A stretch of DNA of 31,053 nucleotides, taken from a virus. The notes beneath the pieces are model-generated. The model was not told where the DNA came from. It worked only from the letters and a program-made list of their open reading frames with translations, and made no database searches. How positions within the stretch are numbered: position 1 is the stretch's first letter; each line of letters begins with the position of its first letter. The position numbers and the translations under genes are program-made. The stretch spans positions 1 to 31,053 of IMG/VR virus record IMGVR_UViG_3300024346_007101. One strand, 5' to 3'. This document shows positions 12,116-29,847 of the stretch, piece by piece.

Positions 12116-15100
12116 ATGAATATATTTGATCCACACATTACGGGTTCCCTGTCCGTTTCCGCATCAGCACATATCGAGGGTGACTTAACAGTATTAGGAA
12201 CTATTCGAGGGGACGCACAAATAACGGGTGAAGTGGATAGTGCAATTAGTGCTTCACACGCAGCATCCTACTTACTTACTTCAAGTTTTGAAGGGGTTAG
12301 TGGTTCTTTTGCAATCACAGGAAGTAATAATTTTAAGGGTGATCAAACCATTAGTGGTTCTTTATTACCTGAAGGTACTTTAGTACATGATATAGGTAGT
12401 GAATCTCAGAGATGGAATGATATCTATTTAGCTGGTAGTACTATTGATATTGGGGGTACTAAGATAAGTAAAAATGATGACGGTGATGTGCAATTTCATG
12501 ATAGTGGGAATACATTAAAAAAGATAATTGCATCTGAGATTCAAATTGGTCATGGTAATAACAGAAAAACACTTAAAGTATCAAACGGGAGATTTAAATT
12601 AACAGGATTAGAGGATATTGAAGAAGGTCTTTCTAACCTATCGGGATCATTTACGGGTTCTTTTGTGGGTGATGGATCACAACTTATTAACGTCCCTGCT
12701 TCAGGAGTAACAGGTCTAAGTTTGGATAGTATCTCAAATGGGAGTAACTCTCTTACGATGGGGGAAACGGTTTTAGTGAGTAATGTTTCAATTTTACCTA
12801 ACATTACCGATACAATAGATTTGGGTTCACCTGATAAACAATGGAGAGACTTATTTCTATCTTCGGGATCACTTTATATAAATGGACAACAAGTTTTATC
12901 AACAACAGGTGATGAACTTAGAATTACAACCGATACGGGAGAATCAATTAAAATAATTGAGACTTCAACGGATACAATAACATTACAAACCGAAGATGGT
13001 GACATTACGTTAACAGCTTCAGGTAATGGTAATATTGAATTAGACGCACCAATACAAATAGGTGCGGGAAATAAAATACTATCTTCTGACGGTAATGAAA
13101 TACAATTTGGTAATGGTTTATCAGTCACAGGTAGTGTAGTTTTAACAGGTACGGTTGACGGTGTTGACATTGCAGGATTAAACACTACATTCAATTCATT
13201 TACATCTTCCACTAATGGGGCAATTAATGTAGAATCTTTACGAATTAATAGTTTAGAAGAATTCACGGCAAGTATTGATGATACATATGCAACCGATACA
13301 GACGTAACAACATTACGTACTGATTTAAACACATACACATCATCTAATGACACAACAAACACAAATCAAGATGATAGGTTAGATAGTTTAGAAACTAAAA
13401 CAGGAAGTTTAGATAGTGCAGATACAGAACAAAAGGGTAGGTTAGATTCTATTGAAAACTTTACCTCGTCGGTCGATGGTCAGGTTAGATCTGACTTTAA
13501 TACATATACAGCATCAAACGATAGTAATATATCGACATTAAATACACACAAAACAACAGTTGAAGGTGGTTTAGAATTTACAGGTTCAAATGTTACCATC
13601 AAAGGTAATCTTTTAGTAAAAGGAACAGAAACAAGAGTTAACTCAACGACAGTTGATCTTGACGACAATATAATTTCACTTAATGGTACAGGAGCATCAG
13701 ATGCGGGTATTGAAGTGAGAGATGTTACATCACCTGGTATTTTATCGGGGTCCTTATTATGGGATGGTGTAACTAACTATTGGAAAGGTGGAACTAAGGG
13801 TAATGAAGAAAGACTTTTAGATAATTCCGACCTTGTCTCCCTTGACGGTAGGTTAGACTCTATTGAAACGACAACATCATCTTTCGATGGTAGATTAGAT
13901 TCATTAGAAACCACAACAGGTAGTTTAAAAAGTCAAGTAAGTTCTTTGGAAGGGTTTACCGCAAGTATTGACGATACATATGCAAGTGATAGTGATGTTA
14001 CAACATTACGTACCGACCTTAACACATATACCTCATCAAATGATACTAATATAAACACATTAGATGGTAGATTAGATTCATTAGAAACTGAAAGTGGTAG
14101 TGTAAAAGGTAGATTAGAACATATTGAAATTGCAACTGGTAGTTTATCAAGTGACATAAGTACTTTAGATGGTAGATTAGATAGTGTAGAAACTAAGACA
14201 GGAAGTTTATCAAGTGACATAAGTACTTTAGATGGTAGAGTTGACACAATTGAATCACAAACAGGAAGTTACCAAGATGGATATGACTATTCACAAATAG
14301 GTCACTTACCACTAAGTGGGGGGTCAGGTGTAGGTCAGGCAATGACTGGTAATCTACATATCCAAAATGGAGGTCCAAAAATATATTTAAAAGATACCAC
14401 AGATGATGATGACCAAGCAATATATTTCCAAAATAATGCGGGTACCACAGAATACATAATATCCACACAGGATTTTACTTCTGGTGGTCTTGCTGACGGT
14501 ATGTTTATTGGTTCCGTTAGTGGTGATGAATTGGGGTTAGTAACCAACAACACTACCGCCTTATACATAGATACCTCACAAAATTCAACTTTTTCAGGTC
14601 ATATAATTCCAAAGACAGATGCAACACAGGATTTAGGTACTACAAACTCTTTAGACTTTAGAACTCTATATGTTAGAAATATCGACATATTCAACCAAAG
14701 AGTTAATATTAGTTCCACTGGTACAATAGCTACGTTCTCAGATCACACTTCAGTGGGAGATGGGATTCAGTTTAATCATTTAGGGACAGAAATATTACGA
14801 CTTGGGAATGGTAGTAGTACAACAGCGACCTTTGCAGGTACTATCGTAGCGTCAGGTTACAACGATGGTAATTGGAATACGGCTTACGGATGGGGTGACC
14901 ATTCGACCGAAGGGTATATTAAATCATTTACAGATACGAACGAATTTGTTAGTGGAGTAACATTCAACAGTGCTGATGGTGTATTAACATTCACAAGAAA
15001 TAATGGGGGTGACACTTTCACGGTTGATATTGATGGGAGATATTCATTATTAAATCACGTACATACATTTGCATCGTTAACAAGTAAACCAACTACGTTA

Positions 15101-18100
15101 AGTGGTTACGGAATTACGGACGCCGCGACATCTACACAAGGGTCTAATGCCGACACCGCATTTGGATGGGGTAACCATGCAAGTGTTGGGTATATAACAG
15201 GATTTACAAATACAAATGAATTTGTTAGTGGTGCTACTTTTAATAGTGGTAATGGTGTAATAACATTCACAAGAAATAATGGTGGTGATACGTTTACTGT
15301 TGATATAGATGGTAGACATGTATTTAAAACTGGTGACACCATGACGGGTACCTTAATCGTACCGACGTTACAAATAGGTAATGCGACGTTTAGTCGAAGT
15401 GGTGATCAAAATCACGTACATTTTGTTGGTACAGCATTAATACCAAACACATCAACCACATCCTCTAACTCAAATATGGGTACATCCACATATAGATGGA
15501 AAGGTGTTTATGGTGGTCTTGGTGATTTTAGTGGTATTGTAACTGCATCAGGTGGTAATTCAGGAAATTGGAACACCGCATATGGATGGGGAGATCATTC
15601 AACTGAAGGATACTTAACGGCTCACCCTACAGTAGTGGCATCGGCGTCTTCAAACAATGGTGGAAGAACATACATTCAAGATATCTTATTAGATGGTTTC
15701 GGACATATTACAGGAATAACAACGGCTACTGAAACAGTTGTCGATACGAACAATTTCGTAACAGGACATACTTGGAATTCAACTACGGGTGTATTAACAA
15801 CAACCTTAAATGATGGATCAACAACAAACGTCAACTTAGTTAATACACTAAGTGATGTTACAGTAACAGGTGGAACATATGCATCAGGAACACAAATATT
15901 AACATTAACAAAAAATGATGGTAGTACTGTAGATGTCTCAGGTTTTGCAATTGACACCGATGTTAATTGGTACACTACAGGAAGTACATTTAACAGTACT
16001 AATGGTGTTATTACATTTACAAGAAGTGACGGTGGAACATACACTGTTGATATTGATGGTAGATATCTTACAAGTTATACTGAAACAGATACGTTAGGTA
16101 GTGTAACCGATAGGGGATCAACTACCACTAATGGTATTACAGTTGGTGAATTAACAACAACAAAAATATCAACATCAACAGATAGTAATCTATATCTATA
16201 TCCAACAGGTAATGGTCATTTATATTTAGGTGACTCGGGTAACGGTATGAATATGTACCACTACAGTCAACAGAACAATGGTAAATACACAACCTTCACA
16301 CATAATGGTACATATTATAGAATAAGTCCAACAGCAACATCGGGTTTAGAAATAACATCAAACACAAGAATTACAGGGACATTAACCGCATCAGGTTACA
16401 ACGATGCTAATTGGAACACGGCTTACGGATGGGGTAATCACGCAAGTGCTGGTTATATATCTTCATTTACAGATACAAATGAATTCGTAACAGGAGCTAC
16501 TTTTAATACTGGTAACGGTATTATTACATTTACAAGAAACAATGGTGGTGATACATTTACTGTTGATATTGATGGTAGATTCTTAGATACAAGAGCACAA
16601 GTGCACAGTGAATTATATAGTTCGGGTGGTGACGCTAATGATTATACGGAATTTGGTATATATAGAAATTACGGATCTAACGGACCTATCGTTGGTCACA
16701 ATACAATATTACATGTATCTCAAACAGACGGTAATTATGGTTTCCAATTAGGGGGGTCAACAGTAGTTAATGGTGACGGATTATACTTTAGGAATTTTGC
16801 GGGTACTGACACAATAACGGGATCAACGTGGTATCACATCGCAACAAGAGATTGGGTTGGTGATCAAAATTACGTAACCACAACAGGATATAATAACGGT
16901 AATTGGGATACGGCATATGGATGGGGTAATCACGCAAGTGCTGGTTATGCATCATCTTCACACACACATAGTGCGGCGGATATTACAAGTGGTAAACTAT
17001 CTAATGATAGACTTAATTGGAATGTGAACGATAATTTTTCAGGTACATATTCTTTATTATGGAATGCGTCTGATTCTTTATACACCGCAGCTTGGTTACA
17101 AGTTAGGGGAAGTGACGACACACTTTTAACTAAAAATATTGTTGCTAACGGAAGTGTTACTGGTACTAACCTAATGGTTTCTAATTGGAATACGGCATAT
17201 GGATGGGGAGATCATTCAACAGAAGGATATATTAAATCATTCACAAATACAAATGAATTTGTAACGGGAGCTACTTTTAATAGTGGTAATGGTATTGTTA
17301 CATTCACAAGAAACAATGGTGGTGATACATTTAATGTCGACATTGATGGTAGATTCTCATTATCATCACATAATCATGATGGTGATTATATACAGGATGG
17401 TGGATCTTCGGCAATCGGAGATATTAACACAATTGGTACAGAATCTATAAAACATAGATGGAATAATTCAACAGTTGGGAGACCAGCATCATCACAAACT
17501 AATGAGTATGGTACGGTTACTACATTAACATACGATAGTCTATGGGCAACACAAATTGCATGGGATATCCATGATAGTAATTTATACGGAAGAACTCTCG
17601 ACGTGACTAATAACACGGGAACGTGGTCTAAGTTTTTTACGGATAGTAATTTTACTGATAATTCAACTAATTGGGATACCGCATACGGATGGGGTAACCA
17701 TGCAAGTGCTGGTTACTTAACAACATTCTCAGAAAGTGATACATTAGCAACTGTAACATCAAGAGGTTCGATAAGTAATAGTCAAATTACTTTAGGTAGT
17801 GGGGGAGCATGGACACCACTAACAATTAATAAGTCTTCCAATGAAGGTACCGCAAACGCGGGTGTGGCAATCGCACTTGATGGTACGGATTACAGTGAAT
17901 ATGGGTACAGATTTAAAGCGAATGGTTCTAACTATTACCAAGTTTTATATGATGGATCAACAATTAATTGGAAACATTATAATAGTGGATACATTAGTAA
18001 AATGTCACTTACCAACACAGGTAATTTAACTTTAGTTGGTACATTAACAGCATCAGGATATAATGATAGTAATTGGAACACCGCATACGGATGGGGTAAC

Positions 18101-21100
18101 CATGCAAGTGCTGGATATCTTACCTCAATAACAGGTCCTATAAGTGGTGATTGGTGGAACGGTGGTTTCATATCGGTAGGTACTGATGGGGTTATGGAAG
18201 TTGGTAAATATCTTGACTTCCACACGTCAGATAGTGGTGGTAATAATGATTTCGATTTAAGGGTTACGGCTGGTGTTGGGAGTCTAACCGTTGGTGGAAC
18301 TATAGCCGCCACAGGAGGTAATTCAACTCAATGGAATACAGCATATGGATGGGGTAACCACGCAAGTGCTGGTTACGCAAGTAACACTAACGTTTCTAAT
18401 TGGGATACTGCATATGGATGGGGTAACCATGCAAGTGCCGGTTATCTAACATCTTTTACCGAAACAAATAGTTTCTTAGGTGATGGTGGATCTGCGAATA
18501 CACATCCAGGTACAAATAGAGTAATATTTACAGGACAAGTAAGTGCTGGATCAGGTGCATTGGGAATGCCTACCGTAGATAATTCAAATGCGTTCCTAAA
18601 TATTAATAGACACTCAGGTGAATATAATAGTCAGTTAGGGTTTAGTTCTAACGGTCATATATACTATAGAAAATTCAGTGCGGCGGCAATAAACGGTACA
18701 CAACCGTGGTTACAAGTTTACCATTCAGGTGTTTTCACAAACAACTCATCTAATTGGAACACCGCATACGGATGGGGTAACCATGCAAGTGCTGGTTATC
18801 TAACATCATATACAGATACGAACGAATTTGTAACGGGTGCTACCTTTAATGGTAGTAACGGTATTGTTACATTTACAAGGAACAATGGTGGGGATACATT
18901 CACACTTAACTTAGCATCAACATTAACAGATGTTACTGTAACAGGTGGTACATATACTTCAGGTACTCAAACATTAAGACTTACCAAATCAGATGGTAAC
19001 ACTATTGATGTTTCAGGTTTCGCAATTGATACCGACACAAATACAAATAATTACACAACGGGTGCAACGTTTAATACTGGTAACGGTATTATAACGGGTA
19101 CACTTAATGGTGGTGGTACGTGGACTGTGGATATTGATGGTAGGTTTGCACCGACGGCACATAATCACCACGGTACCTATATGAAAACTAATAGAACACT
19201 AACTTCTATTAATACTATAGATAACGGAGGTGATAGATATGACCCAAGTGCGGATAACCCAACAAATGAACATTATGCGGTATTAACTTACGGTAATGGT
19301 GGTAACGTAACAGGTCAATTAGCAACGCATTTTGTAACGGGGGATCTTTATTCAAGAGGTTATAATACTACATGGTCTACTTGGAAAAAATATTTCAACA
19401 CAGATGATTTCACAACAACAAATATTTCTAATTGGAATGCAGCATATGGATGGGGTAACCATGCAAATGCTGGTTATATAACATCACCGAATGGTGGTAA
19501 TGCTGATACTTTAGACTCATTAGACTCAACTCAGTTCTTAAGAAGTGACGTGTCGGATACACATACAGCGACATTAACAGTTAATGGTCAGTTTATATTT
19601 AACTCATCACTTAATAGTTCTTATCGAGAAGGAATTAGGTTAAACGTATCCACAACTGGATGGGGTGCTGCGGTAATTGGTGGACAAAGAAATTCTATAT
19701 CAGGAATAACAGATGGATGGTGGGTAGCAAGAAACCCATCAAAGGATTTTGTTATATCTTATGGAACCAGTGCTAACTCAGGTGGTTTATACTTACCATA
19801 CAACAGTTCGGCGTTAGAATATAAAAATAATCGAATATGGAACGAAAGTGACTTCACATCAACAAATATTTCTAATTGGAATACTGCTTACGGATGGGGT
19901 AACCATGCAAGTGGTGGTTACGCAACTCTATCGGGGTCTAACAGTTTCACTAATTCGTATAATGAATTTGGTAATGGAACGGGTAGTGTAAGTAACGATG
20001 GTAGTTGGAATGCGAGAGTTAACATTGCAGGAACATCACACGCAAGACTTGATGTGAAATCAGTAAGTGACGGTATCATTACTACAATGTTTTCTCATAT
20101 TGGTCATGCGGCCGGTAAAGTTGGTACCTACTCTAATCATCCATTAAAATTGGTGATTAATGGAATTGATAAAGCAACTTTAGATAGTGGTGGTGGGTTT
20201 ACACTTGTTGGTGGGTTAACCTCAACAACAGTAAATACAGGTCAAGGAGCGACAGAGGTTCATCTAATGAATCAAAATGTTCGTACAACTGACTCACCAA
20301 CCTTCTCAACACTTAATGCAACTTCTTTAGTCGCTACGAGTACAGTTTCAGGGTCGACAGTCTTAGACATACAAGGAACACAAGGACAGTTATTCTCAAT
20401 AACAGATGATCTTACAGGTGATTTATTCTCTGTATCGGATTCTTCGGGAGTACCAATCTTTAATGTAAATGCTAACGGAACGGTATCCATTGATACCTTA
20501 GGGTTGTTAACAGTTGGAGGTTCTATAACAGGAACATCATTTGTTAAGAGTGGTGGAACATCATCAGAATTCTTAAAAGCGGATGGTAGTGTAGATTCGA
20601 CAACGTACTTATCGAGTTTACCATCACATACACATACATTTGCATCATTAACAAGTAAACCAACTACGTTAAGTGGTTACGGAATTACGGATGCCGCAAC
20701 ATCGACACAAGGATCTAATGCTGACACCGCATTTGGATGGGGTGATCACGGTTTATCTGCACAAGACAAAACAGATATTGGGAACTTATCCGGTACAAAC
20801 ACAGGTGACCAAGATTTAAGTAGTTACTTAACATCGTACACTGAGACTGATACATTAGGAACTGTTATTGGTAGAGGAAATTCAACGACAGGTGCTATTA
20901 GTTTCACAGGGACTGGTGCTAACACTGGAATTATGTTCAACTCAACTGTGGTAGCAAACGATGGGTTCGGTATTAGAGTAAATGGGACAAGTAATGCTGG
21001 TGAAATGGAGTTTTACAGTACTGATGATGATGATGAACCTTTCGTGTTTAGACATTATACGTCAGGACAAGACGGTACAGGTACTTCAGTTGAGTGGTTC

Positions 21101-22198
21101 CGAATTGGTGCTGGTGGTAATATCACCTCAACAGGAACAATAACGGCATCAAACTTTAGTGGAACATCATCCGGTACAAACACAGGAGACCAAGATTTAA
21201 GTGGTTACGCAAGTAACACTAACGTCTCAAATTGGGACACCGCATATGGATGGGGAGACCATGCAAGTGCTGGATATACTTCTAATACAGGTACACTAAC
21301 AGATAGTAATGATAGAAACTATATCACAGATAGTAGAGGTGCCGCGAGAGCACCATCATACTATGATGATAGATATGCACAATGGGACTTCCAAAACGTT
21401 TCCGACACAGGAGTTGGTGGTGATGGATGGCACGCATTACTTACGGTTTCTAAGTGGGCGAGTTTTGATGCAAGTCACAGACAAGAACAATTAATATTTT
21501 CAGGTGACCACTTATGGAGAAGAACAGCGACAAGTGATTCTGCTTGGGGTACTAATAAAAAGATATGGGATTCAGGTAACTTAACTAATAACTCATCTGA
21601 TTGGGACACCGCAGTTGGATGGGGTGATCACGGTTTATCCGCACAAGACAAAATAGATATTGGGAATTTATCCGGAATAAACACCGGTGATCAAACAAAT
21701 ATTAGTGGTAATGCCGCCACCGCAGATTACGCAACAAGTGCGGGATCGGCATCAAACATTGATAATGTTGGATTCACAAACTCAAATAGTGGTAACGCAC
21801 AAGCCGCGGATAGTATAAATAATAATGGTATTTCATATGTTAGTGGTTTCCCTAACTTATCAGGAAACGCATCAGACGGAGCACTTTACTCACAAGCATA
21901 TTCTTCACAATGGCAACATCAAATTTATGGTGATTACCGTGTAGGTGGTATATGGGTGAGAGGTAAGAACTCAAACACTTGGCAATCATGGAAGAAAGTG
22001 GCACTTGTTAACAGTACAACATTTACTAATGTGTTAGGTGTTGCATTTACTCATGGTTTAGATACTAAAAATTTGGTTGTACAGGTATATGACACAAACG
22101 ATAATTTATTCTTCCCATCAGATATAAATGTAACTGATACCGAAGTTAATATTGATTTTGCAAAACCACGTAGTGGTAGGGTAGTAGTTACAGGATAA
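12116..22198 (+). CDS. Giant tail fibre protein (3360 residues)
   Basis: The protein starts MNIFDPHITGSLSVSASAH, a glycine/serine/threonine-rich style common at the N-terminus of marine phage fibres. A module of the form 'D.G....RW.D.Y..' occurs near residues 90-105, 232-250 and 835-850, with a looser copy near 1115. Residues ~375-720 are heptad repeats (DGRLDSLETKTGSL and variants), a trimeric coiled-coil stalk. From ~920 to ~3180 there are 16 copies of a TAYGWG(N/D)HASAGY motif, interleaved with FTRNNGGDTFTVDIDGR strands, TLSGYGITDA elements and unique insertions. The C-terminus (~3308-3360) is a THGLDTKNLVVQVYD...GRVVVTG domain common at fibre ends. There is no signal peptide or transmembrane segment. 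It probably trimerises and binds the host surface at the tip. Its size is exceptional for a fibre, and its length alone implies a very long appendage. It is followed by three small paralogs probably belonging to the same structure. Confidence 0.88.
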   Translation: MNIFDPHITGSLSVSASAHIEGDLTVLGTIRGDAQITGEVDSAISASHAASYLLTSSFEGVSGSFAITGSNNFKGDQTISGSLLPEGTLVHDIGSESQRWNDIYLAGSTIDIGGTKISKNDDGDVQFHDSGNTLKKIIASEIQIGHGNNRKTLKVSNGRFKLTGLEDIEEGLSNLSGSFTGSFVGDGSQLINVPASGVTGLSLDSISNGSNSLTMGETVLVSNVSILPNITDTIDLGSPDKQWRDLFLSSGSLYINGQQVLSTTGDELRITTDTGESIKIIETSTDTITLQTEDGDITLTASGNGNIELDAPIQIGAGNKILSSDGNEIQFGNGLSVTGSVVLTGTVDGVDIAGLNTTFNSFTSSTNGAINVESLRINSLEEFTASIDDTYATDTDVTTLRTDLNTYTSSNDTTNTNQDDRLDSLETKTGSLDSADTEQKGRLDSIENFTSSVDGQVRSDFNTYTASNDSNISTLNTHKTTVEGGLEFTGSNVTIKGNLLVKGTETRVNSTTVDLDDNIISLNGTGASDAGIEVRDVTSPGILSGSLLWDGVTNYWKGGTKGNEERLLDNSDLVSLDGRLDSIETTTSSFDGRLDSLETTTGSLKSQVSSLEGFTASIDDTYASDSDVTTLRTDLNTYTSSNDTNINTLDGRLDSLETESGSVKGRLEHIEIATGSLSSDISTLDGRLDSVETKTGSLSSDISTLDGRVDTIESQTGSYQDGYDYSQIGHLPLSGGSGVGQAMTGNLHIQNGGPKIYLKDTTDDDDQAIYFQNNAGTTEYIISTQDFTSGGLADGMFIGSVSGDELGLVTNNTTALYIDTSQNSTFSGHIIPKTDATQDLGTTNSLDFRTLYVRNIDIFNQRVNISSTGTIATFSDHTSVGDGIQFNHLGTEILRLGNGSSTTATFAGTIVASGYNDGNWNTAYGWGDHSTEGYIKSFTDTNEFVSGVTFNSADGVLTFTRNNGGDTFTVDIDGRYSLLNHVHTFASLTSKPTTLSGYGITDAATSTQGSNADTAFGWGNHASVGYITGFTNTNEFVSGATFNSGNGVITFTRNNGGDTFTVDIDGRHVFKTGDTMTGTLIVPTLQIGNATFSRSGDQNHVHFVGTALIPNTSTTSSNSNMGTSTYRWKGVYGGLGDFSGIVTASGGNSGNWNTAYGWGDHSTEGYLTAHPTVVASASSNNGGRTYIQDILLDGFGHITGITTATETVVDTNNFVTGHTWNSTTGVLTTTLNDGSTTNVNLVNTLSDVTVTGGTYASGTQILTLTKNDGSTVDVSGFAIDTDVNWYTTGSTFNSTNGVITFTRSDGGTYTVDIDGRYLTSYTETDTLGSVTDRGSTTTNGITVGELTTTKISTSTDSNLYLYPTGNGHLYLGDSGNGMNMYHYSQQNNGKYTTFTHNGTYYRISPTATSGLEITSNTRITGTLTASGYNDANWNTAYGWGNHASAGYISSFTDTNEFVTGATFNTGNGIITFTRNNGGDTFTVDIDGRFLDTRAQVHSELYSSGGDANDYTEFGIYRNYGSNGPIVGHNTILHVSQTDGNYGFQLGGSTVVNGDGLYFRNFAGTDTITGSTWYHIATRDWVGDQNYVTTTGYNNGNWDTAYGWGNHASAGYASSSHTHSAADITSGKLSNDRLNWNVNDNFSGTYSLLWNASDSLYTAAWLQVRGSDDTLLTKNIVANGSVTGTNLMVSNWNTAYGWGDHSTEGYIKSFTNTNEFVTGATFNSGNGIVTFTRNNGGDTFNVDIDGRFSLSSHNHDGDYIQDGGSSAIGDINTIGTESIKHRWNNSTVGRPASSQTNEYGTVTTLTYDSLWATQIAWDIHDSNLYGRTLDVTNNTGTWSKFFTDSNFTDNSTNWDTAYGWGNHASAGYLTTFSESDTLATVTSRGSISNSQITLGSGGAWTPLTINKSSNEGTANAGVAIALDGTDYSEYGYRFKANGSNYYQVLYDGSTINWKHYNSGYISKMSLTNTGNLTLVGTLTASGYNDSNWNTAYGWGNHASAGYLTSITGPISGDWWNGGFISVGTDGVMEVGKYLDFHTSDSGGNNDFDLRVTAGVGSLTVGGTIAATGGNSTQWNTAYGWGNHASAGYASNTNVSNWDTAYGWGNHASAGYLTSFTETNSFLGDGGSANTHPGTNRVIFTGQVSAGSGALGMPTVDNSNAFLNINRHSGEYNSQLGFSSNGHIYYRKFSAAAINGTQPWLQVYHSGVFTNNSSNWNTAYGWGNHASAGYLTSYTDTNEFVTGATFNGSNGIVTFTRNNGGDTFTLNLASTLTDVTVTGGTYTSGTQTLRLTKSDGNTIDVSGFAIDTDTNTNNYTTGATFNTGNGIITGTLNGGGTWTVDIDGRFAPTAHNHHGTYMKTNRTLTSINTIDNGGDRYDPSADNPTNEHYAVLTYGNGGNVTGQLATHFVTGDLYSRGYNTTWSTWKKYFNTDDFTTTNISNWNAAYGWGNHANAGYITSPNGGNADTLDSLDSTQFLRSDVSDTHTATLTVNGQFIFNSSLNSSYREGIRLNVSTTGWGAAVIGGQRNSISGITDGWWVARNPSKDFVISYGTSANSGGLYLPYNSSALEYKNNRIWNESDFTSTNISNWNTAYGWGNHASGGYATLSGSNSFTNSYNEFGNGTGSVSNDGSWNARVNIAGTSHARLDVKSVSDGIITTMFSHIGHAAGKVGTYSNHPLKLVINGIDKATLDSGGGFTLVGGLTSTTVNTGQGATEVHLMNQNVRTTDSPTFSTLNATSLVATSTVSGSTVLDIQGTQGQLFSITDDLTGDLFSVSDSSGVPIFNVNANGTVSIDTLGLLTVGGSITGTSFVKSGGTSSEFLKADGSVDSTTYLSSLPSHTHTFASLTSKPTTLSGYGITDAATSTQGSNADTAFGWGDHGLSAQDKTDIGNLSGTNTGDQDLSSYLTSYTETDTLGTVIGRGNSTTGAISFTGTGANTGIMFNSTVVANDGFGIRVNGTSNAGEMEFYSTDDDDEPFVFRHYTSGQDGTGTSVEWFRIGAGGNITSTGTITASNFSGTSSGTNTGDQDLSGYASNTNVSNWDTAYGWGDHASAGYTSNTGTLTDSNDRNYITDSRGAARAPSYYDDRYAQWDFQNVSDTGVGGDGWHALLTVSKWASFDASHRQEQLIFSGDHLWRRTATSDSAWGTNKKIWDSGNLTNNSSDWDTAVGWGDHGLSAQDKIDIGNLSGINTGDQTNISGNAATADYATSAGSASNIDNVGFTNSNSGNAQAADSINNNGISYVSGFPNLSGNASDGALYSQAYSSQWQHQIYGDYRVGGIWVRGKNSNTWQSWKKVALVNSTTFTNVLGVAFTHGLDTKNLVVQVYDTNDNLFFPSDINVTDTEVNIDFAKPRSGRVVVTG
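13250..14275 (+). repeat. Coiled-coil repeat block in fibre gene, incl. 63-base tandem repeat
   Basis: This stretch encodes heptads of the type LDGRLDSLETKTGSL. Two units of 63 bases (21 residues, three heptads) lie in tandem at 14141-14203 and 14204-14266; their first 36 bases are identical. A larger module, FTASIDDTYA.D.DVTTLRT and the following ~12 residues, occurs twice, at about 13260-13350 and 13950-14043. The period is a multiple of seven residues, as needed for a continuous coiled coil. Confidence 0.8.
15061..15171 (+). repeat. 111-base direct repeat, copy 1
   Basis: This segment encodes a TSKPTTLSGYGITDA element running into a WGxH module and matches 20632-20742 with six differences, all of which I read as silent third-position changes. 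The copies are 5571 bases (1857 codons) apart, in the same frame, inside one gene. Confidence 0.85.
20632..20742 (+). repeat. 111-base direct repeat, copy 2
   Basis: Partner of 15061-15171. The 37 encoded residues are the same in both copies. After the repeat the two diverge: copy 1 continues GNHASVGY and copy 2 GDHGLSAQ, so the duplication boundary falls inside the WGxH motif. Confidence 0.85.
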
Positions 22199-22209
22199 AA
22201 GACAAATAA

Positions 22210-23349
22210 ATGATTAGAGAAAATGTAGTTGTTAGTGGTTCATTAGATGTTAGTGGACAATTCATCATTCCAAATGGAACGAAATCAGAAAGACCTACCT
22301 CACCTGAGGAAGGTGCTATGTTTTTAGAAATAACGGATAGTGGTAGTTTTGTATCCACATACACTGGTGCATCTAATTATGACGATGGTTGGGAACCAAT
22401 TGGGTCTCAGTCTCATGATAGGACCGCATTTAAATATAGACAGGTTATAAACTTTTCTTACACTGCGGGTGGATATAAATCAGGATCACCATGGAAGACA
22501 GTTCACAGAACTACTAATGCAACAGATCAAACAGCAAACCTTGGTGAGTTGTTAGACTATCCCGCAAATTACACGTCAGGAGCATGTAGTAAAACTAAAT
22601 TATTTATTTGGTCAACGAATACTGATGGAGCACATAAAGGAGCGACTACGGTACATTCAACACACACATCTGCAATTGACATGATTAACGAAACCACGTC
22701 CGCTCACCAAACTAAATGGGATTTATTAAACGCAAGGGATGACGCAGGAACCTTATTTCAGGAAACTGAATTTGCTTGGGTGTTTGGAGGTTCGGTTGCG
22801 ACGGTTGAGAAATTTAACCTTACCAACGAAACAATGTACACCACCTACTACCCTGGTGGATCACCTTATGTGACATCAAGTACATCAATAACAAGTACAT
22901 TAGGAGCATCGGGATTCAGTGATGAAAACTATGCATTTGGTTATGGTTCTGAGAGTTCAACGAAACTATACTTTGCAAATGATGTATTCACAACATCTAA
23001 AGCACAATTTGCAAGTAGTGGACAACAGAAAGCAATTAGTTCTAAAGTTGGAAAAGGATATGCTGGAAATGAAGGGACGTACAATGGTGGGTATAACTTA
23101 AGAAGGTGGGATGTGTTTACGGAAACCAACATAGGTAATGTACCAAAACCACACCCTAATTGTGGTGAAGAGAACTTCACGATGGGACAAGATCACCAAT
23201 ATATGATTGGAGTTTACGATGGTAGTGGTCAAACAAATAATAGTTGGAAATTCTCTTATACAACAGACACGGGGATTGTTAATCCTACGGGGTTAGCACC
23301 GACAGCACACGCTGGACAATCCTCAGGACATTGTGGTTGGAGAACATAG
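22210..23349 (+). CDS. Putative virion/fibre-associated protein, paralog 1 of 3
   Basis: 379 residues. The N-terminus, VVVSGSLDVSG (6-16), resembles the start of the giant fibre. GTKSERPTSPEEG (23-35) with DDGW (58-61) is the 'GT..RP..P..G ... Y.G..W' module common in marine phage structural proteins. The body has repeated hydrophobic-aromatic strands (LFIWSTNTDG 131-140, AWVFGGS 189-195, YAFGYGSESS 241-250, YMIGVYDGSG 331-340) that suggest a beta-propeller or kelch-like fold (inference). Cysteines 126, 318 and 375 are conserved in all three paralogs. Residues ~203-272 are the variable part. It probably decorates the fibre or baseplate and contacts the host. It sits 11 bases after the fibre gene, with no Shine-Dalgarno sequence. 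Confidence 0.65.
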   Translation: MIRENVVVSGSLDVSGQFIIPNGTKSERPTSPEEGAMFLEITDSGSFVSTYTGASNYDDGWEPIGSQSHDRTAFKYRQVINFSYTAGGYKSGSPWKTVHRTTNATDQTANLGELLDYPANYTSGACSKTKLFIWSTNTDGAHKGATTVHSTHTSAIDMINETTSAHQTKWDLLNARDDAGTLFQETEFAWVFGGSVATVEKFNLTNETMYTTYYPGGSPYVTSSTSITSTLGASGFSDENYAFGYGSESSTKLYFANDVFTTSKAQFASSGQQKAISSKVGKGYAGNEGTYNGGYNLRRWDVFTETNIGNVPKPHPNCGEENFTMGQDHQYMIGVYDGSGQTNNSWKFSYTTDTGIVNPTGLAPTAHAGQSSGHCGWRT

Positions 23350-23367
23350 AAAAAGATATTTATAGTT

Positions 23368-24474
23368 ATGATATATGAGGATTTAGAAGTTAGTGGGTCG
23401 TTAAGAGGACAAGGGATTACAAGATCACCTTCAGGTACTCGTGCTAATAGACCTGTAAATCCTGAGACGGGATCATTATATATGGAGGAGTCAACTTCAG
23501 GTAGTTTTTTAATTGTTTATCATGGACACCCCAATAATGATGATGGATGGGTAAGAGTTTCTAAAGAAGTTAATCCTATTGATTTTAAATACAGACATAT
23601 ACTAACACACAGTTATTTGGCAGGTGGATATAAGAATTCGTCTCCGTGGAAGAACGTACATAGGACGGTAAATGCAACGGACCAAACATCTCACATTGGT
23701 GAGTTGTTAGACTATCCCGCAAATTACACGTCAGGGGCATGTAGTAGGTATATACTTTTTATTTGGTCGGTTAATACTGATGGGGCACATAAAGGTCCCA
23801 CAACAAAACACGGTACCTTCACATCTGCAATTAATATGGTGAATGAAACTAATTATGTGCACCAAACTAAGTTTGATATACTAAATACAAGATCCGATGT
23901 GGGGACCTTATTTCAAGAAACAGATTATGCGTGGATCTTTGCGGGTGGAACAACAATTGTTGAAAAGTTTGACCTTGAGAATGAGACTATTATGTCTTTA
24001 AACTACACACTAAACTCCGTTGACGGATCAGGTGGTGCAAGTGGATTCTCGGATGAAAATTTTGGATATGGTTTTGCATCTGGTGGGTCATTTAAAATGA
24101 ATTTTAGGACTGAAACATTTGTTACAAAACCAGCATGGTCGGCACACGGACAACAAAAAGGAATAAGTTCCAAAGTCGGTAAAGGTTATGCGGGTAACGA
24201 AGGATCATATAATGGTGGGTACAACTTAAGACGATGGTCCAACACAAGTGACACTAATATTGGTAATGTGGTGAAACCACATCCAAATTGTGGTGAAGAA
24301 AATTTTGCATTAGGTCAAGATTCCCAATATATGTTAGGTAACTACGATGGGACTGGTCAAAATAATACAAGTTGGAAATTTAATTATTCAACAGATACAG
24401 GAACTACAAATATATCAGGGTTGGCTCCGGCAGTTAATGCGGGAACATCCTCAGGACATTGTGGTTGGAGATAA
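23368..24474 (+). CDS. Putative virion/fibre-associated protein, paralog 2 of 3
   Basis: 368 residues, the same design as paralog 1: VSGSLRGQG at the start, GTRANRPVNPETG, DDGW, then the body with SGACSR, HPNCGEENF and a terminal SGHCGWR. It shares a 40-base identical tract with paralog 1 (23696-23735 against 22541-22580) and a different 50-base identical tract with paralog 3 (24241-24290 against 25360-25409), a mosaic pattern. Its middle segment (LNYTLNSVDGSGG, then MNFRTETFVTKPAW) differs from both. The role is presumably the same as its neighbours. The start follows TTTATAGTT, with no ribosome binding site. Confidence 0.65.
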   Translation: MIYEDLEVSGSLRGQGITRSPSGTRANRPVNPETGSLYMEESTSGSFLIVYHGHPNNDDGWVRVSKEVNPIDFKYRHILTHSYLAGGYKNSSPWKNVHRTVNATDQTSHIGELLDYPANYTSGACSRYILFIWSVNTDGAHKGPTTKHGTFTSAINMVNETNYVHQTKFDILNTRSDVGTLFQETDYAWIFAGGTTIVEKFDLENETIMSLNYTLNSVDGSGGASGFSDENFGYGFASGGSFKMNFRTETFVTKPAWSAHGQQKGISSKVGKGYAGNEGSYNGGYNLRRWSNTSDTNIGNVVKPHPNCGEENFALGQDSQYMLGNYDGTGQNNTSWKFNYSTDTGTTNISGLAPAVNAGTSSGHCGWR

Positions 24475-24489
24475 TATAAAAAAAGAAGA

Positions 24490-25593
24490 ATGGAATACGG
24501 AAATATGTCGGTTAGTGGTTCACTTAATGTGGACAAAGTAGTTGCGAGACCACCAAAAGGGACTCGTGCTAATAGACCATCAAGTCCTTTGTCGGGGTCC
24601 TTATTTATGGAACAATCCGATAGTGGTAGTTTTATGATGTTATATACTGGTATCTCAAACATTGATGATGGTTGGGAAATGATTGGTGCACAGGAACCAA
24701 GACCAACGGATTTCAAATATAGACAAGTAATTAATTATTCGTATTTAGCGGGTGGATACAAATCATCATCCCCGTGGAAGAACGTACATAAAACAGTTAA
24801 CTCGACAGACCAAACGAATCACATTGGTGAGTTATTGGATTATCCTATGTCATATAGTTCAGGTGCTTGTAGTAAGTCCATTTTATTTATATGGTCAGTT
24901 AACACAGATGGTGCTTGGAAATCAGCAACTAACACACACGGAACTACAACTTCTGCGGTTAACATGTTTAACGACACCAATTATGCACATCAAGCTAAGT
25001 TTGATATAACATATATTCGTCATGATTTAGGTACGTTATTCAAGGAGACGGAGTTTGCTTATTTGTTTGATGGTGGAAACACAAATATGGAAAGATTTAA
25101 TCTAACCAATGAATCACACGCCGGTATTCTTTCGTCATATAATGGTGGTGAAGGTGCAAGTGGATTCTCTGATGAGAACCATGGTTATGGTTGGGGTGGA
25201 TTTGGTGGATTTAAATTTGCATTTGCAACTGAGACACATGTTACCGGGACTAAGTGGGGTGCACATGGACAACAAAAAGGAATAAGTTCCAAAGTCGGTA
25301 AAGGTTATGCTGGTAATGAAGGATCTTACGCAGGTGGATATAACTTAAGAAGATGGGACAACACAAGTGACACTAATATTGGTAATGTGGTGAAACCACA
25401 TCCAAATTGCGGTGAAGAAAATTTCACAATGGGACAAGATCATCAATACATGTTAGGTGTTTACGATGGTACACAAAATAATACGAGTTGGAAATTCATC
25501 TACTCAACAGACACAGGTACAACAAGTGTTCAAGGATTAAACCCAGGGGTTAATGCGGGAACATCATCAGGGCATTGTGGTTGGAGAGAATAA
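24490..25593 (+). CDS. Putative virion/fibre-associated protein, paralog 3 of 3
   Basis: 367 residues. VSGSLNVDK at the start, GTRANRPSSPLSG, DDGW, then SGACSK, the GQQKGISSKVGKGYAGNEG core, HPNCGEENF and SGHCGWRE. The variable middle is glycine/aromatic-rich (HGYGWGGFGGFKFAF), which would suit a surface loop that meets the receptor (inference). It is closest to paralog 2 in the C-terminal third. The 5' leader AAAAAAAGAAGA is purine-rich and is the nearest thing to a ribosome binding site among the three. It ends the structural block; 56 bases separate its stop from the chosen start of the next gene. Confidence 0.65.
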   Translation: MEYGNMSVSGSLNVDKVVARPPKGTRANRPSSPLSGSLFMEQSDSGSFMMLYTGISNIDDGWEMIGAQEPRPTDFKYRQVINYSYLAGGYKSSSPWKNVHKTVNSTDQTNHIGELLDYPMSYSSGACSKSILFIWSVNTDGAWKSATNTHGTTTSAVNMFNDTNYAHQAKFDITYIRHDLGTLFKETEFAYLFDGGNTNMERFNLTNESHAGILSSYNGGEGASGFSDENHGYGWGGFGGFKFAFATETHVTGTKWGAHGQQKGISSKVGKGYAGNEGSYAGGYNLRRWDNTSDTNIGNVVKPHPNCGEENFTMGQDHQYMLGVYDGTQNNTSWKFIYSTDTGTTSVQGLNPGVNAGTSSGHCGWRE

Positions 25594-25649
25594 CTCAAGA
25601 TCACTTTATAATGCAATATATTTTCCATATATTAAAAGAAAAACAATAC

Positions 25650-26417
25650 ATGTCCGAACAAGGTTACAAATACAATAGAGAAGAGAATTTAAAAGACCCA
25701 ATTGATCTTAAATTAATGGAGGTATCTGAGAACATCTCATTTGCATTACCAAAATACAAAGCGGAGAGTTTTGTTGGGGGTGCACAAATCACACCATATG
25801 CAAAGTTAAAACAATGGTTACTCGAACTTAGGGGAAGAGAAGATGCTGTACAACACTTAGAACATAAGGTGAGAAAACAGGAGATCGAGATTGAATTACA
25901 ACAAAGAGGTTTTGAACATATTACAGATCCACTTAAAAAGGAATTGATTGAATTGTCGATTGCTGATATGGAGATTGATCTAAGAAAATTTAGAAGGAAT
26001 TTAAAAGATTCTTATATTGAACGTCAGGGGTTTTTAGATTTAGTAAAAGAATTTATCGAAAGTGACGATTCTAAATTACCCGATGGGACATCATTAATGG
26101 ATGTGTTTGGTAATAGTGAATTAGAAGATAAGTTTGAACATGAGTATTGGACTGTTCGTATGGCGAAACAAGCGATGTTGGATATGATATCTTATGGAAG
26201 AATTGGTACAGGAAATTTAGACTCAATATTAATGATGTCACCTGAACAACAAACACAAGTTTTATCACTTGCGTCTTCTTACACTGTATTTATTGAAAAG
26301 AACGTTCAAAGTTCCATGGTTTCGGCAACTCAAAACAATTTCTCTATCGAGGAATCTTTGAGGAACCAACTAAAGTTAGGGACAACTAATAAAACTAAAA
26401 CAGAAAAACTATTATAA
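25650..26417 (+). CDS. Unrecognised helical protein, possible phage structural or assembly factor
   Basis: I chose the ATG at 25650 (MSEQGYKYNREEN, 255 residues). In-frame ATGs at 25611 and 25575 would add a hydrophobic, less protein-like extension, and the 25575 one would overlap the previous gene. The protein has no signal peptide or cysteine-rich site. Residues ~55-150 are strongly charged and helical (KVRKQEIEIELQQRGFE, then ELSIADMEIDLRKFRRN), consistent with coiled coil. The segment EHEYWTVRMAKQAMLDMISYGRI (about 158-180) looks like a conserved core, and I believe similar sequences occur in marine T4-like phages, unverified. Its place behind the fibre genes suggests a fibre, baseplate or chaperone role (inference). 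TAATG links it to the next gene. Confidence 0.5.
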   Translation: MSEQGYKYNREENLKDPIDLKLMEVSENISFALPKYKAESFVGGAQITPYAKLKQWLLELRGREDAVQHLEHKVRKQEIEIELQQRGFEHITDPLKKELIELSIADMEIDLRKFRRNLKDSYIERQGFLDLVKEFIESDDSKLPDGTSLMDVFGNSELEDKFEHEYWTVRMAKQAMLDMISYGRIGTGNLDSILMMSPEQQTQVLSLASSYTVFIEKNVQSSMVSATQNNFSIEESLRNQLKLGTTNKTKTEKLL

Positions 26418-27157
26418 TGACACACATAATCTTCAAATTACAAGGTAATATACCCGGTTACATTCATGTGGTTGGGATGTATATGAATTACTATTACGGT
26501 AGAATTGCTGACGAATACAATGATATGAGAGTTGAACTTGTTGGTATGGGTGCTGAGATAATTCCGGCAGACATTGCACGGGGATTTGTATTTGCTGACA
26601 ATTATAATGACTACATCAGTATTAGAACTAATTCACATATTATGGACGAAGTTCCACAATTGGCGGAATCATCTGAAACCGATGCTGAAAAAGTTAGACA
26701 CATATTAACCGATGAAGATAAGTTATCGGGTGTAGAGTTTAATAAAGCAGTAATGAAAAAGATCATTGCTGATAGATTTTCTGAAAGACACAAAACATTA
26801 ATGGTTGATGCGTCTAATCTTGAGAAAGATACGTGGGAAGAACAAAAGAGAGAGGCGTATGGTTGGAATTCAGATAACTCATATCCCACACCAATAATTG
26901 ACATACTATCAATCGGTAGAAATATTGAAAAAACTACGTTTGTCAATAAAGTAATTGAGAAGGTTGATTCGTATAATATTAAGTTAGGTACTTTATTATT
27001 GGAACAACAACTTTTAAAAGAAAAGGTGAACCTTTGTGAAAGTATTCCCGATTGTCATAGACTTAAACATGAAAAATTCGGAATTGCACTTAGTAGACAA
27101 CAAAAAGAAGCTGAAGGTATTGAAAGTACACCACTCACACTAAAAATGGATTTCTAA
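26417..27157 (+). CDS. Unrecognised protein, translationally coupled to the preceding gene
   Basis: 246 residues, starting MTHIIFKLQGNIPGYIHVVGMYMNYYYGRIAD. No known motif is recognised. The N-terminal 85 residues are beta-rich. The middle has LSGVEFNKAVMKKIIADRFSE, probably helical, and IDILSIGRNIEKTTFVNKVIEKV follows at about 160-182. The C-terminal part has CESIPDC, a possible disulphide or metal pair. The start overlaps the preceding stop by one base (TAATG), so the two are probably made together and may form a complex, for example as fibre chaperones (inference). I find no signal peptide or transmembrane helix. Confidence 0.5.
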   Translation: MTHIIFKLQGNIPGYIHVVGMYMNYYYGRIADEYNDMRVELVGMGAEIIPADIARGFVFADNYNDYISIRTNSHIMDEVPQLAESSETDAEKVRHILTDEDKLSGVEFNKAVMKKIIADRFSERHKTLMVDASNLEKDTWEEQKREAYGWNSDNSYPTPIIDILSIGRNIEKTTFVNKVIEKVDSYNIKLGTLLLEQQLLKEKVNLCESIPDCHRLKHEKFGIALSRQQKEAEGIESTPLTLKMDF

Positions 27158-27166
27158 AAACATAAA

Positions 27167-28165
27167 ATGAACTTAGCAATTAACGGTACATGTGCTAAAG
27201 GTTGTTCATTTTGTTTCACTAAAGAAGATGCGAGAGTTAAACATACCTTAGGTGACATGTCAATAGACAAAGTGACCGAACTGTTAGATCATTTTGATAT
27301 GGTTAATAGTGATGAGGAGGTTACAATCTTAGGTGGTGAACCTACACAACACCCAAACTTCAATGGTATTATAGATTACATTATATCGAGAGGTTACACA
27401 ATAAATCTTGTGAGTAATCTATTGTTTGGTAAAAAGACATTGGATTATATTATCAATAATCTCGAACACATACGTTGGATGTTACCTAATGGTGCTGAGT
27501 TAGATGAGAAAAATAGAATCGTTTTATTTAAGAAGAATTATTTAGCACTACACACAGCTTACTCAAATATATGGGGGTTTGAAGACAACGCGAGATTGTT
27601 CATTGCAATTACTATGTCATCCGATTGGAGAGAACGTAAATTGTATGAATACATCAAATGGTTATACCTTCAATTAGATGGTCGAATTAATGCGTTTAGA
27701 CTCGGTGTTGATTTAACAGGTAACTACCTCATCAACAATAAGGAGATGGGACAGGAGATTACTAAAATACTTAACTTTGGTTTTTATAATGACATAAGGA
27801 TAACGTCAGATTGTCAAGTACCACCATGTTTATGGGAAGGAGAAACTAAGGAGTCTGTTAATATTAATTCATTAGGGTTTGCGACATTCAAAGTACCAGG
27901 ACATGAAACGGTTTGTGGGTTCATGCCGTTAGATATATTTCCTGATGGGAGTTCGATACATTGTTATCCGTTACAAGACAAAGTAAAGATCGATAATGTC
28001 TTGAAAGTCTCAGGAAAAAACAATATATTAACACTTAGAGATGAATTCGATAATCTCTATAAAGAGAACCATAAAAACTACACCTTACCACAAGACTGTT
28101 TAGATTGTGTCTTCTATAAGACAGAGTGTAATGGGATATGTGGGGGTTGTTTAGAGAATGAATAA
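27167..28165 (+). CDS. Radical SAM/SPASM-type protein
   Basis: 332 residues. The SAM cluster motif lies at the very N-terminus, C9-AKG-C13-SF-C16, followed by LGGEPTQHP (55-63). The C-terminus carries a cysteine set C311, C314, C321, C325, C328 (CLDCVFYKTECNGICGGC), the pattern of a SPASM or twitch domain that binds auxiliary Fe-S clusters; more cysteines occur in PPCLW and ETVCGF. SPASM proteins modify peptides, for example by forming thioether or C-C crosslinks, though other substrates are known. It overlaps the next gene by 8 bases, so it and the U32-like protein are probably partners. No peptide substrate is visible nearby. Confidence 0.87.
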   Translation: MNLAINGTCAKGCSFCFTKEDARVKHTLGDMSIDKVTELLDHFDMVNSDEEVTILGGEPTQHPNFNGIIDYIISRGYTINLVSNLLFGKKTLDYIINNLEHIRWMLPNGAELDEKNRIVLFKKNYLALHTAYSNIWGFEDNARLFIAITMSSDWRERKLYEYIKWLYLQLDGRINAFRLGVDLTGNYLINNKEMGQEITKILNFGFYNDIRITSDCQVPPCLWEGETKESVNINSLGFATFKVPGHETVCGFMPLDIFPDGSSIHCYPLQDKVKIDNVLKVSGKNNILTLRDEFDNLYKENHKNYTLPQDCLDCVFYKTECNGICGGCLENE

Positions 28166-29198
28166 AATATTTTCAATACCACTAAATCCAATGTTAAGTG
28201 AACAGGCGTTCACACATCTATTCTACCCTTTTTTACAAAAGAACAAAGATTGGATATACGATATATATTTCACATGTAGAATACCTCCATTCACACAAGA
28301 TGCTATGGGTGGTATCTTCAAAGAAGAAGATAGAGATTCTGTATTTGAAAATGCAATGATCATTCAGGAGACTTTAGGTATAAGTGTTAGTGCCACCTTC
28401 AACAACTTTAACGTGTCACCAAAACACGAAAACTATAAATTATTTATCGATAATCTAAAACCTTTATATGAAAGAGGTTTACGTTGTATAACAATACCAC
28501 ATGGTCATTGGGTCGCTATGGGATTAAAGGAACATTTCCCCGAGATGAAGATTAAAAACACAATCTTACGTAAGGTTGCAACCGCACAAGATTTTTGGTA
28601 TTCAGCAGAACAAGGATTTGACTACATCAATGTGGATAGAATCCTTATGAGAGATATTGAGGAATTAAAAAACATTAGGAGAGCACAATTGATGTTTCAA
28701 CAGAAACATGGTAGGTATGTTGAGATAGCACTTTTAACTAATGAAGGTTGTTTAGGTAGATGTCCAGTAATGGATGAACACTACTCATACAATAATCTAC
28801 GTAAGGACAATGAATTACCTTATTTTAGACACGAAATATCTAAAGTGACATGTGAGTATAAGTGGGAGAAAGAAATGGGTGCATTCTTCTTTAAAACGGC
28901 TACAATACCACCATTCAAAGAAGAGTTCGATGAGTTCTTAAACCATGTTGATGTTTTTAAGATGCACGGTAGGGATAGTTTCGACAGGTTGAATGAAACT
29001 ATGGAAATTGTTGAATCATACGCAAAAGGTAATGAGGTATTGGCTGAGAGTTCAAAGATATACTTAGATGGTATTCCACATGAAGAATTAAAAGGTTGGA
29101 GGAATAAAATAAAGAAGTGTAAGTTCCAATGTTGGGACTGTAATTACTGTGATGTTGTTTCGGAACACAAAAAAAAGAAATTAAATGAATCTAATTAA
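28158..29198 (+). CDS. U32-peptidase-like (UbiU/UbiV/RlhA-type) protein with cysteine-rich tail
   Basis: 346 residues with a TIM-barrel-like pattern: LRCITIPHG (108-116), FDYINVD (154-160) and TNEGCLGRCPVMDEHY (194-209). The last resembles the 'E.GC...C' region of the U32 family, whose members RlhA, TrhP and UbiU/UbiV act as Fe-S proteins in RNA or ubiquinone hydroxylation rather than as plain proteases. Cys198, Cys202, Cys232 and the tail C321xxxC325xxC328xxC331 provide more than four ligands. The tail reads CxxxCxxCxxC, but there is no GGEP and it is at the wrong end, so it is not a radical SAM motif. The 8-base overlap with the SPASM gene and the 14-base overlap with the methyltransferase suggest a three-gene modification unit. 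The substrate is unknown. Confidence 0.65.
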   Translation: MNKIFSIPLNPMLSEQAFTHLFYPFLQKNKDWIYDIYFTCRIPPFTQDAMGGIFKEEDRDSVFENAMIIQETLGISVSATFNNFNVSPKHENYKLFIDNLKPLYERGLRCITIPHGHWVAMGLKEHFPEMKIKNTILRKVATAQDFWYSAEQGFDYINVDRILMRDIEELKNIRRAQLMFQQKHGRYVEIALLTNEGCLGRCPVMDEHYSYNNLRKDNELPYFRHEISKVTCEYKWEKEMGAFFFKTATIPPFKEEFDEFLNHVDVFKMHGRDSFDRLNETMEIVESYAKGNEVLAESSKIYLDGIPHEELKGWRNKIKKCKFQCWDCNYCDVVSEHKKKKLNESN

Positions 29199-29847
29199 TC
29201 ACATTGACGATTCAATTGAGTGGGGTAACCACGAAGTCTCGAAACTAAATCAGGATGTAATAGACATCCATGGAATTACGAGTAATAAGGTCAGGTGTTT
29301 CTTAAATAACATTTGTAGTATTGGTGGAACCTACTTAGAGGTCGGTGTTTTTAGAGGTGCTACTTTCTGTTCGGCCATATACCAAAATGATATTCACTCA
29401 ATAGGTATAGATAATTTTGCGTCACCTAACTTAATGCCGATGGGTGTCAGTCAAAAATTAGCAACATACCTTAAAAAACGTCTTGACGTGTCCCCACAAG
29501 ATGATTTCTTAGGTAATGTTAAAAGGTTTGGTAACACTGATATGATTGATGTTTATAGAACGGACTACACAACTTTTGATTATTCACAATTACCAAAATT
29601 AGATATTATATTTTACGATGGTGACACTCGTTACCATGATCAATACACAGTACTTAAAAAACTAATCCCACAGTTTGCGGATCAAACCATATTAATAATG
29701 GATGATTGGAATTGGGATAGTGGTGCACTTAGACAAGTCATCACAGAAGAGAACCTTTATGTTTCACATCAACGTGAAATATTTACTGAGGGTGAAGATA
29801 TGGAACACTTTTGGAATGGATTAGGGGTATTTCTTATCGAACGATAG
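29185..29847 (+). CDS. Class I SAM-dependent methyltransferase (Methyltransf_24/TylF-like)
   Basis: 220 residues. Motif I is YLEVGVFRGAT (50-60), followed by IGIDNF (73-78), a strand-loop-strand around DIIFYDGDTRYHDQY (140-154) and LIMDDWNW (170-177), which is the usual layout of the Methyltransf_24 and TylF/CmcI-like families, with acidic residues that can bind a metal. These enzymes typically O-methylate sugars or small molecules. The sequence lacks any nucleic-acid methyltransferase motif. It is translated from inside the end of the U32-like gene. Its stop at 29845-29847 is immediately followed by a promoter, so the polycistron probably ends here. Confidence 0.8.
   Translation: MNLINHIDDSIEWGNHEVSKLNQDVIDIHGITSNKVRCFLNNICSIGGTYLEVGVFRGATFCSAIYQNDIHSIGIDNFASPNLMPMGVSQKLATYLKKRLDVSPQDDFLGNVKRFGNTDMIDVYRTDYTTFDYSQLPKLDIIFYDGDTRYHDQYTVLKKLIPQFADQTILIMDDWNWDSGALRQVITEENLYVSHQREIFTEGEDMEHFWNGLGVFLIER

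Follow-up and report, generated by a model that had tools for sequence, protein, structure and literature searches.

The window analyzed here is a 31-kb IMG/VR virus record (IMGVR_UViG_3300024346_007101, 31,053 nucleotides), and the closest isolate relatives of a run of its genes are T4-like cyanophages. Three overlapping open reading frames on the plus strand encode a radical S-adenosylmethionine (SAM)/SPASM enzyme (27167..28165, 332 amino acids; PF04055, E = 2.3e-9), a predicted TIM-barrel protein of the U32 superfamily (28158..29198, 346 amino acids; phrog_1458, E = 1.5e-95), and a SAM-dependent methyltransferase (29185..29847, 220 amino acids; phrog_1458, E = 2.5e-33; PF13578, E = 1.5e-7). 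The last two are the N- and C-terminal halves of one family, phrog_1458 or T4-GC 354, matching positions 1 to 297 and 303 to 519 of a single 519-residue profile. Upstream on the same strand lie three tandem copies of the GC351 family (phrog_1417; copy a, 22210..23349, E = 2e-48; copy b, 23368..24474, E = 1e-46; copy c, 24490..25593, E = 1e-42) and two GC352/353-type proteins, phrog_1409 (25575..26417, E = 3e-47) and phrog_1604 (26417..27157, E = 2e-23). The listed TTG start of the phrog_1409 gene overlaps GC351 copy c, and translation more likely begins at the ATG at 25650. These families form a conserved tail module of T4-like phages, composed of GC351 (one to three copies), GC352, GC353, and the modifying enzyme GC354.

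The positions of the three enzyme genes and their overlaps (8 nucleotides between the first two and 14 nucleotides between the last two) agree with an earlier note on this DNA, made from the sequence alone. The genes are intact, under strong purifying selection, and not chance frames, because their order is kept in the nearest loci and nonsynonymous change is low at near-saturated synonymous sites. The radical SAM gene precedes the U32-like gene in all of the 80 nearest IMG/VR loci, and the methyltransferase gene comes next in 78, the other two contigs ending there; against relatives, pS is 0.69 to 0.91, pN is 0.07 to 0.22, and pN/pS is about 0.09 to 0.29. The U32-like protein is the most conserved of the three products. 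Strict co-occurrence was thus found, where the earlier note had named rarity elsewhere as the observation that would count against it. The three genes did not hold up as a functional unit in themselves, since the U32-methyltransferase pair sits within a four-family module and the radical SAM gene occurs in one lineage. Of 245 radical SAM copies, 237 immediately precede the U32-like gene and the other 8 are at contig ends; these loci were partly fetched via the U32-like gene, a scan starting from the radical SAM protein also contributed, and loci of a contig reached by several scans were counted repeatedly. In the fused form of the module, in which U32 and methyltransferase are one gene, no radical SAM gene was found in any locus examined, and isolate phages gave a single weak match to its protein. 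From this distribution, the radical SAM gene is a lineage-specific addition to the module. Six genome contigs carry U32-like relatives, and none of the five whose genes were read has the trio.

The U32-like protein has no match to PF01136 (U32) in Pfam and none in NCBIfam, and PF01136 is likewise without a match in four relatives (L088, L089, L003, and L227). A PDB sequence search with the family profile returned a chance match only. The AlphaFold model, built with 28 sequences (predicted local distance difference test [pLDDT] 86.8, predicted template modeling score [pTM] 0.86), was more informative: the U32 peptidase Mk0906 (PDB 5D88) ranked first both by Foldseek (E = 1.6e-7) and by VIA-align, with a Z score of 16.0 over 216 residues and the next match at 13.3. 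TIM barrels resemble one another, and for this reason the gap between 16.0 and 13.3 weighs more than the value itself. A genome search with the family profile led to a bacterial family (L252 to L257, E = 1e-11 to 1e-15) that has the same seven cysteines as the phage family and scores above the Pfam cut-off for U32 (E values as low as 1.2e-13); among 297 genomes of the phylum Desulfobacterota, only the known relative and six distant ones were found. In hhalign comparisons, the phage family (alignment A2) matched this intermediate family (A7) over nearly its full length (99.4%, E = 3.5e-21), and A7 in turn matched canonical U32 proteins (A6; 98.3%, E = 2e-14), whereas the direct match of the phage family to canonical U32 was weak (76%, E = 2e-5). 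The assignment as a predicted U32-superfamily TIM-barrel protein therefore holds, resting on the fold match and on the chain of homology through bacterial intermediates; it bears out the U32-like call of the earlier note, for which the lack of such a fold had been the counterindication, even though Pfam U32 itself does not match.

Seven cysteines are invariant among the 28 sequences of the family, arranged as C198-x3-C202-x29-C232 and C321-x3-C325-x2-C328-x2-C331, the second group being the C-x3-C-x2-C-x2-C tail already recognized in the earlier note. About 60 positions are invariant in all, many of them polar (H115, H208, H270, K133, N134, D160, R161, E196, and E207). The canonical U32 cysteine motif is CX6CX15CX3/4C (PMC6747719); we recovered it in 10 of 11 U32 control loci and not in the phage family, in which the Glu of the KIEGR motif is also replaced by His. 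Because of these two replacements, the family is a distinct branch of the U32 superfamily, neither TrhP nor UbiU.

Relatives of the U32-like protein also occur apart from the module. In a 224-kb phage (L235:5956-7092), a lone U32-like gene lies, by eye, between an SPFH-like gene and dCTP-deaminase and rIIB-like genes, with methyltransferase and Kelch genes absent, and the short contig L088, which appears viral, has the same downstream neighbors. In a Syntrophaceae contig (L089:7589-9520), the U32-like gene is followed by a second short relative carrying a NAGCAYNCPARICY motif and then, again by eye, by GNAT, TauE-like, and CysD/CysN-C-like genes; in L091 this order recurs, with a partial extra copy. 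The idea that the bacterial relatives adjoin adhesins was set aside, having been seen in two contigs only (L089 and L090).

The radical SAM/SPASM call is borne out by PF04055 together with the cysteines. The CX3CX2C motif (C9, C13, and C16) and the SPASM-type cysteines (C250-x10-G261-x4-C266; C311-x2-C314-x6-C321-x3-C325-x2-C328) are invariant in 8 aligned relatives and follow the expected pattern CX9-15GX4C ... CX2CX5CX3C ... C, with one spacer of 6 in place of 5. No NCBIfam equivalog scored above its cut-off, and the radical SAM profile matched nothing in a PDB sequence search. The methyltransferase likewise retains its cofactor residues, with the SAM-binding glycines G54 and G58, D76, and the acidic positions D145 and D173-D174 invariant in the family, and Methyltransf_24 (PF13578) matches 19 of 22 family members. 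It is a SAM-dependent and, from these residues, probably metal-dependent O-methyltransferase. The only significant PDB match of its profile was YrrM/TrmR (PDB 5zw3; E = 5e-4), and none of the TylF models matched at E ≤ 0.01 among the 22 members searched. Of the "TylF-type methyltransferase" proposed earlier, the SAM methyltransferase thus stands, whereas the TylF type is not specifically supported.

The U32 and methyltransferase halves form one gene in all of the other methyltransferase-carrying family members examined. In cyanophages, tblastn found both halves of the fused gene in 123 records, annotated in the records opened as one "hypothetical protein," T4-GC 354; the fusion extends to more distant marine phages, and the lineage of the window has the split form. 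The window reads GC351 (three copies), phrog_1409 protein, phrog_1604 protein, radical SAM, U32-like, methyltransferase, and the cyanophage order is GC351, the same two companions (mostly swapped), and then GC354. Co-occurrence in isolate phages was assessed by comparing record counts and organism splits: queries from S-RIM2 found each of the two companions, and likewise the U32 domain, in 123 records with an identical organism split (77/38/8), and GC351 was found in 121 phage records over at least 80% of its length. Among environmental sequences, the 80 nearest IMG/VR loci preserve the module order to the extent that their contigs cover it, and the U32-like gene is present in all 34 GC351-anchored loci with enough flank. 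The linkage also withstands distance: in S-ShM2 the enzyme gene is present although about 6 kb and 12 genes separate it from GC351-353 upstream. Eight contigs carry two divergent module sets in tandem, with enzymes about 53% identical; seven of the second-set enzymes form one clade, and so do their GC351 partners, with support of 1.0 in both trees. From the co-occurrence, the linkage across distance, and the matching second-set clades, it follows that each enzyme spreads and diverges together with its GC351 partner, the two being inherited as a unit.

Several observations accompany the module in individual genomes. In S-ShM2, three 2OG-Fe(II) oxygenase genes stand between GC353 and GC354 (L259:11635-14311), whereas in S-SM1 no module member is annotated in the corresponding tail region and several 2OG-Fe(II) oxygenases are found there instead; these oxygen-dependent hydroxylases and the U32-like gene share the same genomic region. 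A genome contig labeled Dehalococcoidia (L093:5066-6799) is a cyanophage-like fragment with the fused gene and GC351-353 and is probably a binning contaminant.

In cyanophage annotations GC351 appears as "sericin 1 precursor-like" or hypothetical. The model that AlphaFold gave for copy b (pLDDT 86.2) matches Keap1-type Kelch domains (Foldseek E of about 1e-14; VIA Z score of 29.8, with a root mean square deviation of 2.4 over 267 residues), and GC351 is accordingly predicted to be a six-bladed Kelch-type propeller; copy a is homologous to the modeled copy and likewise has an N-terminal region of fiber-like appearance. The three copies in the window (22210-25593) are about 60 to 70% identical to one another and lie downstream of the tail fiber. 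The 75 N-terminal residues of copy b may, as judged by eye, resemble fiber attachment segments. Two cysteine features of GC351 vary with the presence of the radical SAM gene: a Cys precedes the GEEN motif in 140 of 150 distinct sequences of the radical SAM lineage versus 3 of 69 in those without it, and SGxCS occurs in 106 of the former 150 versus 2 of the 69.

The tail fiber upstream of the module (12116..22198, plus strand; 3,360 amino acids) matches phrog_9729 (E = 6e-72) and phrog_22284 (E = 7e-39). A match of about 30 residues to a Shiga-like toxin B subunit inside it (Pfam and PHROG) is most likely a chance or repeat match, and no toxin gene is indicated. Upstream of the fiber are glycan-type genes, namely, a glycosyltransferase, a twitch radical SAM gene, a UDP-glucose dehydrogenase-like gene, and a NodU-like carbamoyltransferase gene. 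Here, a family-7 glycosyltransferase is fused to a lectin/laminin-G-like domain (727-2118), and the second radical SAM gene is of the twitch-domain type (2115-3524; NF033640, E = 1.7e-106). This gene content matches the host recognition cluster of marine T4-like myophages, a variable island of tail fibers, glycosyltransferases, and radical SAM genes (PMC7029224). Downstream of the enzymes, as in many loci of this lineage, an outer-membrane-protein-like gene (29918-30832) has an apparent signal peptide and a weak Phenol_MetA_deg match; it looks Bacteroidota-like by eye and has no isolate-phage match, hence indicating no host. The start of a membrane protein with a weak citrate-transporter-like match (30820-31053) is cut by the contig end, and in L112 and L104 what looks by eye like a homologue comes after the first module set.

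The pairing of a U32 protein with an O-methyltransferase suggests hydroxylation followed by O-methylation, and the linkage of the enzyme to GC351-353 suggests a target among the module proteins. Our leading reading, held tentatively and somewhat short of an even chance, is that fiber-region proteins of the module itself, most likely GC351, rather than RNA, are modified in this way. The U32-like protein would hydroxylate a residue of the target by the chemistry of TrhP, RlhA, and UbiUV, possibly with oxygen from prephenate, and the methyltransferase would then O-methylate the hydroxyl group so formed, in the manner of TrmR, which follows TrhP1/TrhP2 in Bacillus subtilis. In the radical SAM lineage only, the third enzyme might add a further modification, speculatively at the GC351 cysteines. 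The more specific proposal, a phage protein-maturation system in which a U32 iron-sulfur (Fe-S) enzyme and an O-methyltransferase, joined in one lineage by a radical SAM enzyme, modify the phage's own Kelch tail adhesins with each enzyme dedicated to its own adhesin set, is possible but doubtful. The earlier suggestion of a new modification pathway acting on RNA, a virion protein, or a glycan is a fair reading insofar as the pathway is uncharacterized, with linkage and paired sets favoring the virion protein; the gene families themselves were already on record as unknowns, and the oxygen-independent reaction also suggested is not supported by our results.

A number of points weigh against modification of GC351. 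The targets of characterized U32 oxidases are RNA or quinone (PMC11574389), and with the canonical cysteine motif and the KIEGR Glu missing, even hydroxylation is an extrapolation. U32-like relatives without methyltransferase or GC351 in the 224-kb phage, the short contig L088, and Syntrophaceae and Desulfocapsa contigs imply that the U32 half can work outside the tail module. Near-identical S-RIM2 and S-RIM12 isolates make up the bulk of the 123 records, which may represent about a dozen lineages, and the GC351 cysteine correlation compares one clade with the rest and could be explained by phylogeny alone. Co-inheritance is also compatible with a target of the enzymes in the host, provided that it serves the same tail module. 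Finally, virion proteomics for GC351-354 was not found in the published literature; one virion proteome (PMC3037559) was set aside because it is based on S-SM1, whose tail region has no annotated module members.

The alternative that fares best, which we nevertheless consider fairly unlikely, is RNA modification, with the two enzymes making a hydroxy- and then a methoxy-nucleoside in host or phage tRNA or rRNA and the tail linkage reflecting late-operon co-expression only. The closest known pathway with both activities does act on tRNA: TrmR (YrrM), the closest solved methyltransferase, converts 5-hydroxyuridine to 5-methoxyuridine (ho5U to mo5U) in B. subtilis tRNA, and the U32 proteins YrrN and YrrO, encoded in the same operon, are required for the tRNA hydroxyl (PMC6599085), while the U32 relatives RlhA and TrhP also act on RNA (PMC11574389). 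A general RNA enzyme, however, would not be expected to remain strictly linked to GC351-353 even at 6 kb, nor to be duplicated or lost together with a Kelch partner, for which it should have no need. No tRNA gene is present in the window. The tail-region linkage and the occurrence of two enzyme-plus-Kelch sets in one phage therefore favor a virion-protein target over RNA.

It is unlikely, too, that the enzymes belong to a small-molecule or glycan pathway, in which a hydroxylated, O-methylated cofactor or sugar would be bound by the Kelch protein or would decorate the host surface, and the glycan-type genes of the window would be part of the same chemistry. Those genes do lie upstream, and host recognition clusters of marine myophages contain genes of this kind (PMC7029224); UbiU/V, which are U32 proteins, act on a small molecule (PMC6747719), and the distant bacterial relatives adjoin, by eye, molybdenum-hydroxylase-like genes. 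The cyanophage module, however, has no annotated glycosyltransferase nearby, and its constant partners are GC351-353. Least probable of all is that the U32-like protein binds, chaperones, or helps to assemble the Kelch proteins, or serves as an Fe-S electron carrier, leaving only the methyltransferase and the radical SAM enzyme as catalysts: the replaced canonical cysteines and KIEGR Glu and the existence of U32 members without shown oxidase activity (PMC11574389) would fit, but the seven cysteines and about 60 invariant positions look like an active site, and the protein is the most conserved of the three.

If a module protein is indeed modified, this would to our knowledge be the first case of a U32 enzyme with such an action on protein. 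The U32 oxidases, a young class of enzymes, have RNA and quinone as their targets, and a large marine-phage branch that has different cysteines, is joined to a methyltransferase, and is inherited with a Kelch protein offers a concrete candidate for a protein target; the module is likewise a candidate for chemically finished phage attachment proteins. Direct testing is feasible, as sequenced cyanophage isolates carry the module. In the open-access literature searched, we found no description of a phage peptidase-U32 protein, the papers with both terms being on bacteria as judged by title and abstract; among the results listed, titles and abstracts gave no description of the GC351-354 module with a Kelch propeller either. 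The core of the trio is not new as sequence, its gene families being known as uncharacterized (phrog_1458, T4-GC 354); what is new here is a module that unites the enzyme with GC351, the predicted Kelch propeller, and with GC352 and GC353.

Compared with known systems, the window shares with phrog_1458/T4-GC 354, a hypothetical protein in P-SSM4, Syn33, and S-RIM2, the same two domains in the same order and the same GC351-352-353 module, but it encodes as two overlapping genes, preceded by a radical SAM gene only in this lineage, what is fused in cyanophages and methyltransferase-bearing relatives. The host recognition cluster (PMC7029224) resembles it in tail fibers, glycosyltransferases, and radical SAM genes, whereas U32 is not mentioned in the text of that paper. 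Radical SAM/SPASM enzymes such as peptide maturases have the same CX3CX2C motif and SPASM auxiliary-cluster cysteines; the window enzyme differs in lying below the NCBIfam equivalog cut-offs and in being tied to a phage U32-like gene. Like members of the U32 family (PF01136; TrhP, RlhA, UbiU/UbiV, and 5D88), to which the A2-A7-A6 chain connects it, the U32-like protein has a predicted TIM barrel, a K-x-x-G-R strand motif, and likely Fe-S cysteines; it lacks CX6CX15CX3/4C, has His for the KIEGR Glu and a C-terminal CX3CX2CX2C tail, and falls below the Pfam threshold. The nearest parallel in logic is yrrMNO of B. subtilis (TrmR, TrhP2, and TrhP1), in which U32 genes are likewise encoded with a related O-methyltransferase for hydroxylation and then methylation; the phage genes, overlapping in the window and fused elsewhere, instead reside in a tail module and provide one U32 protein, not two.

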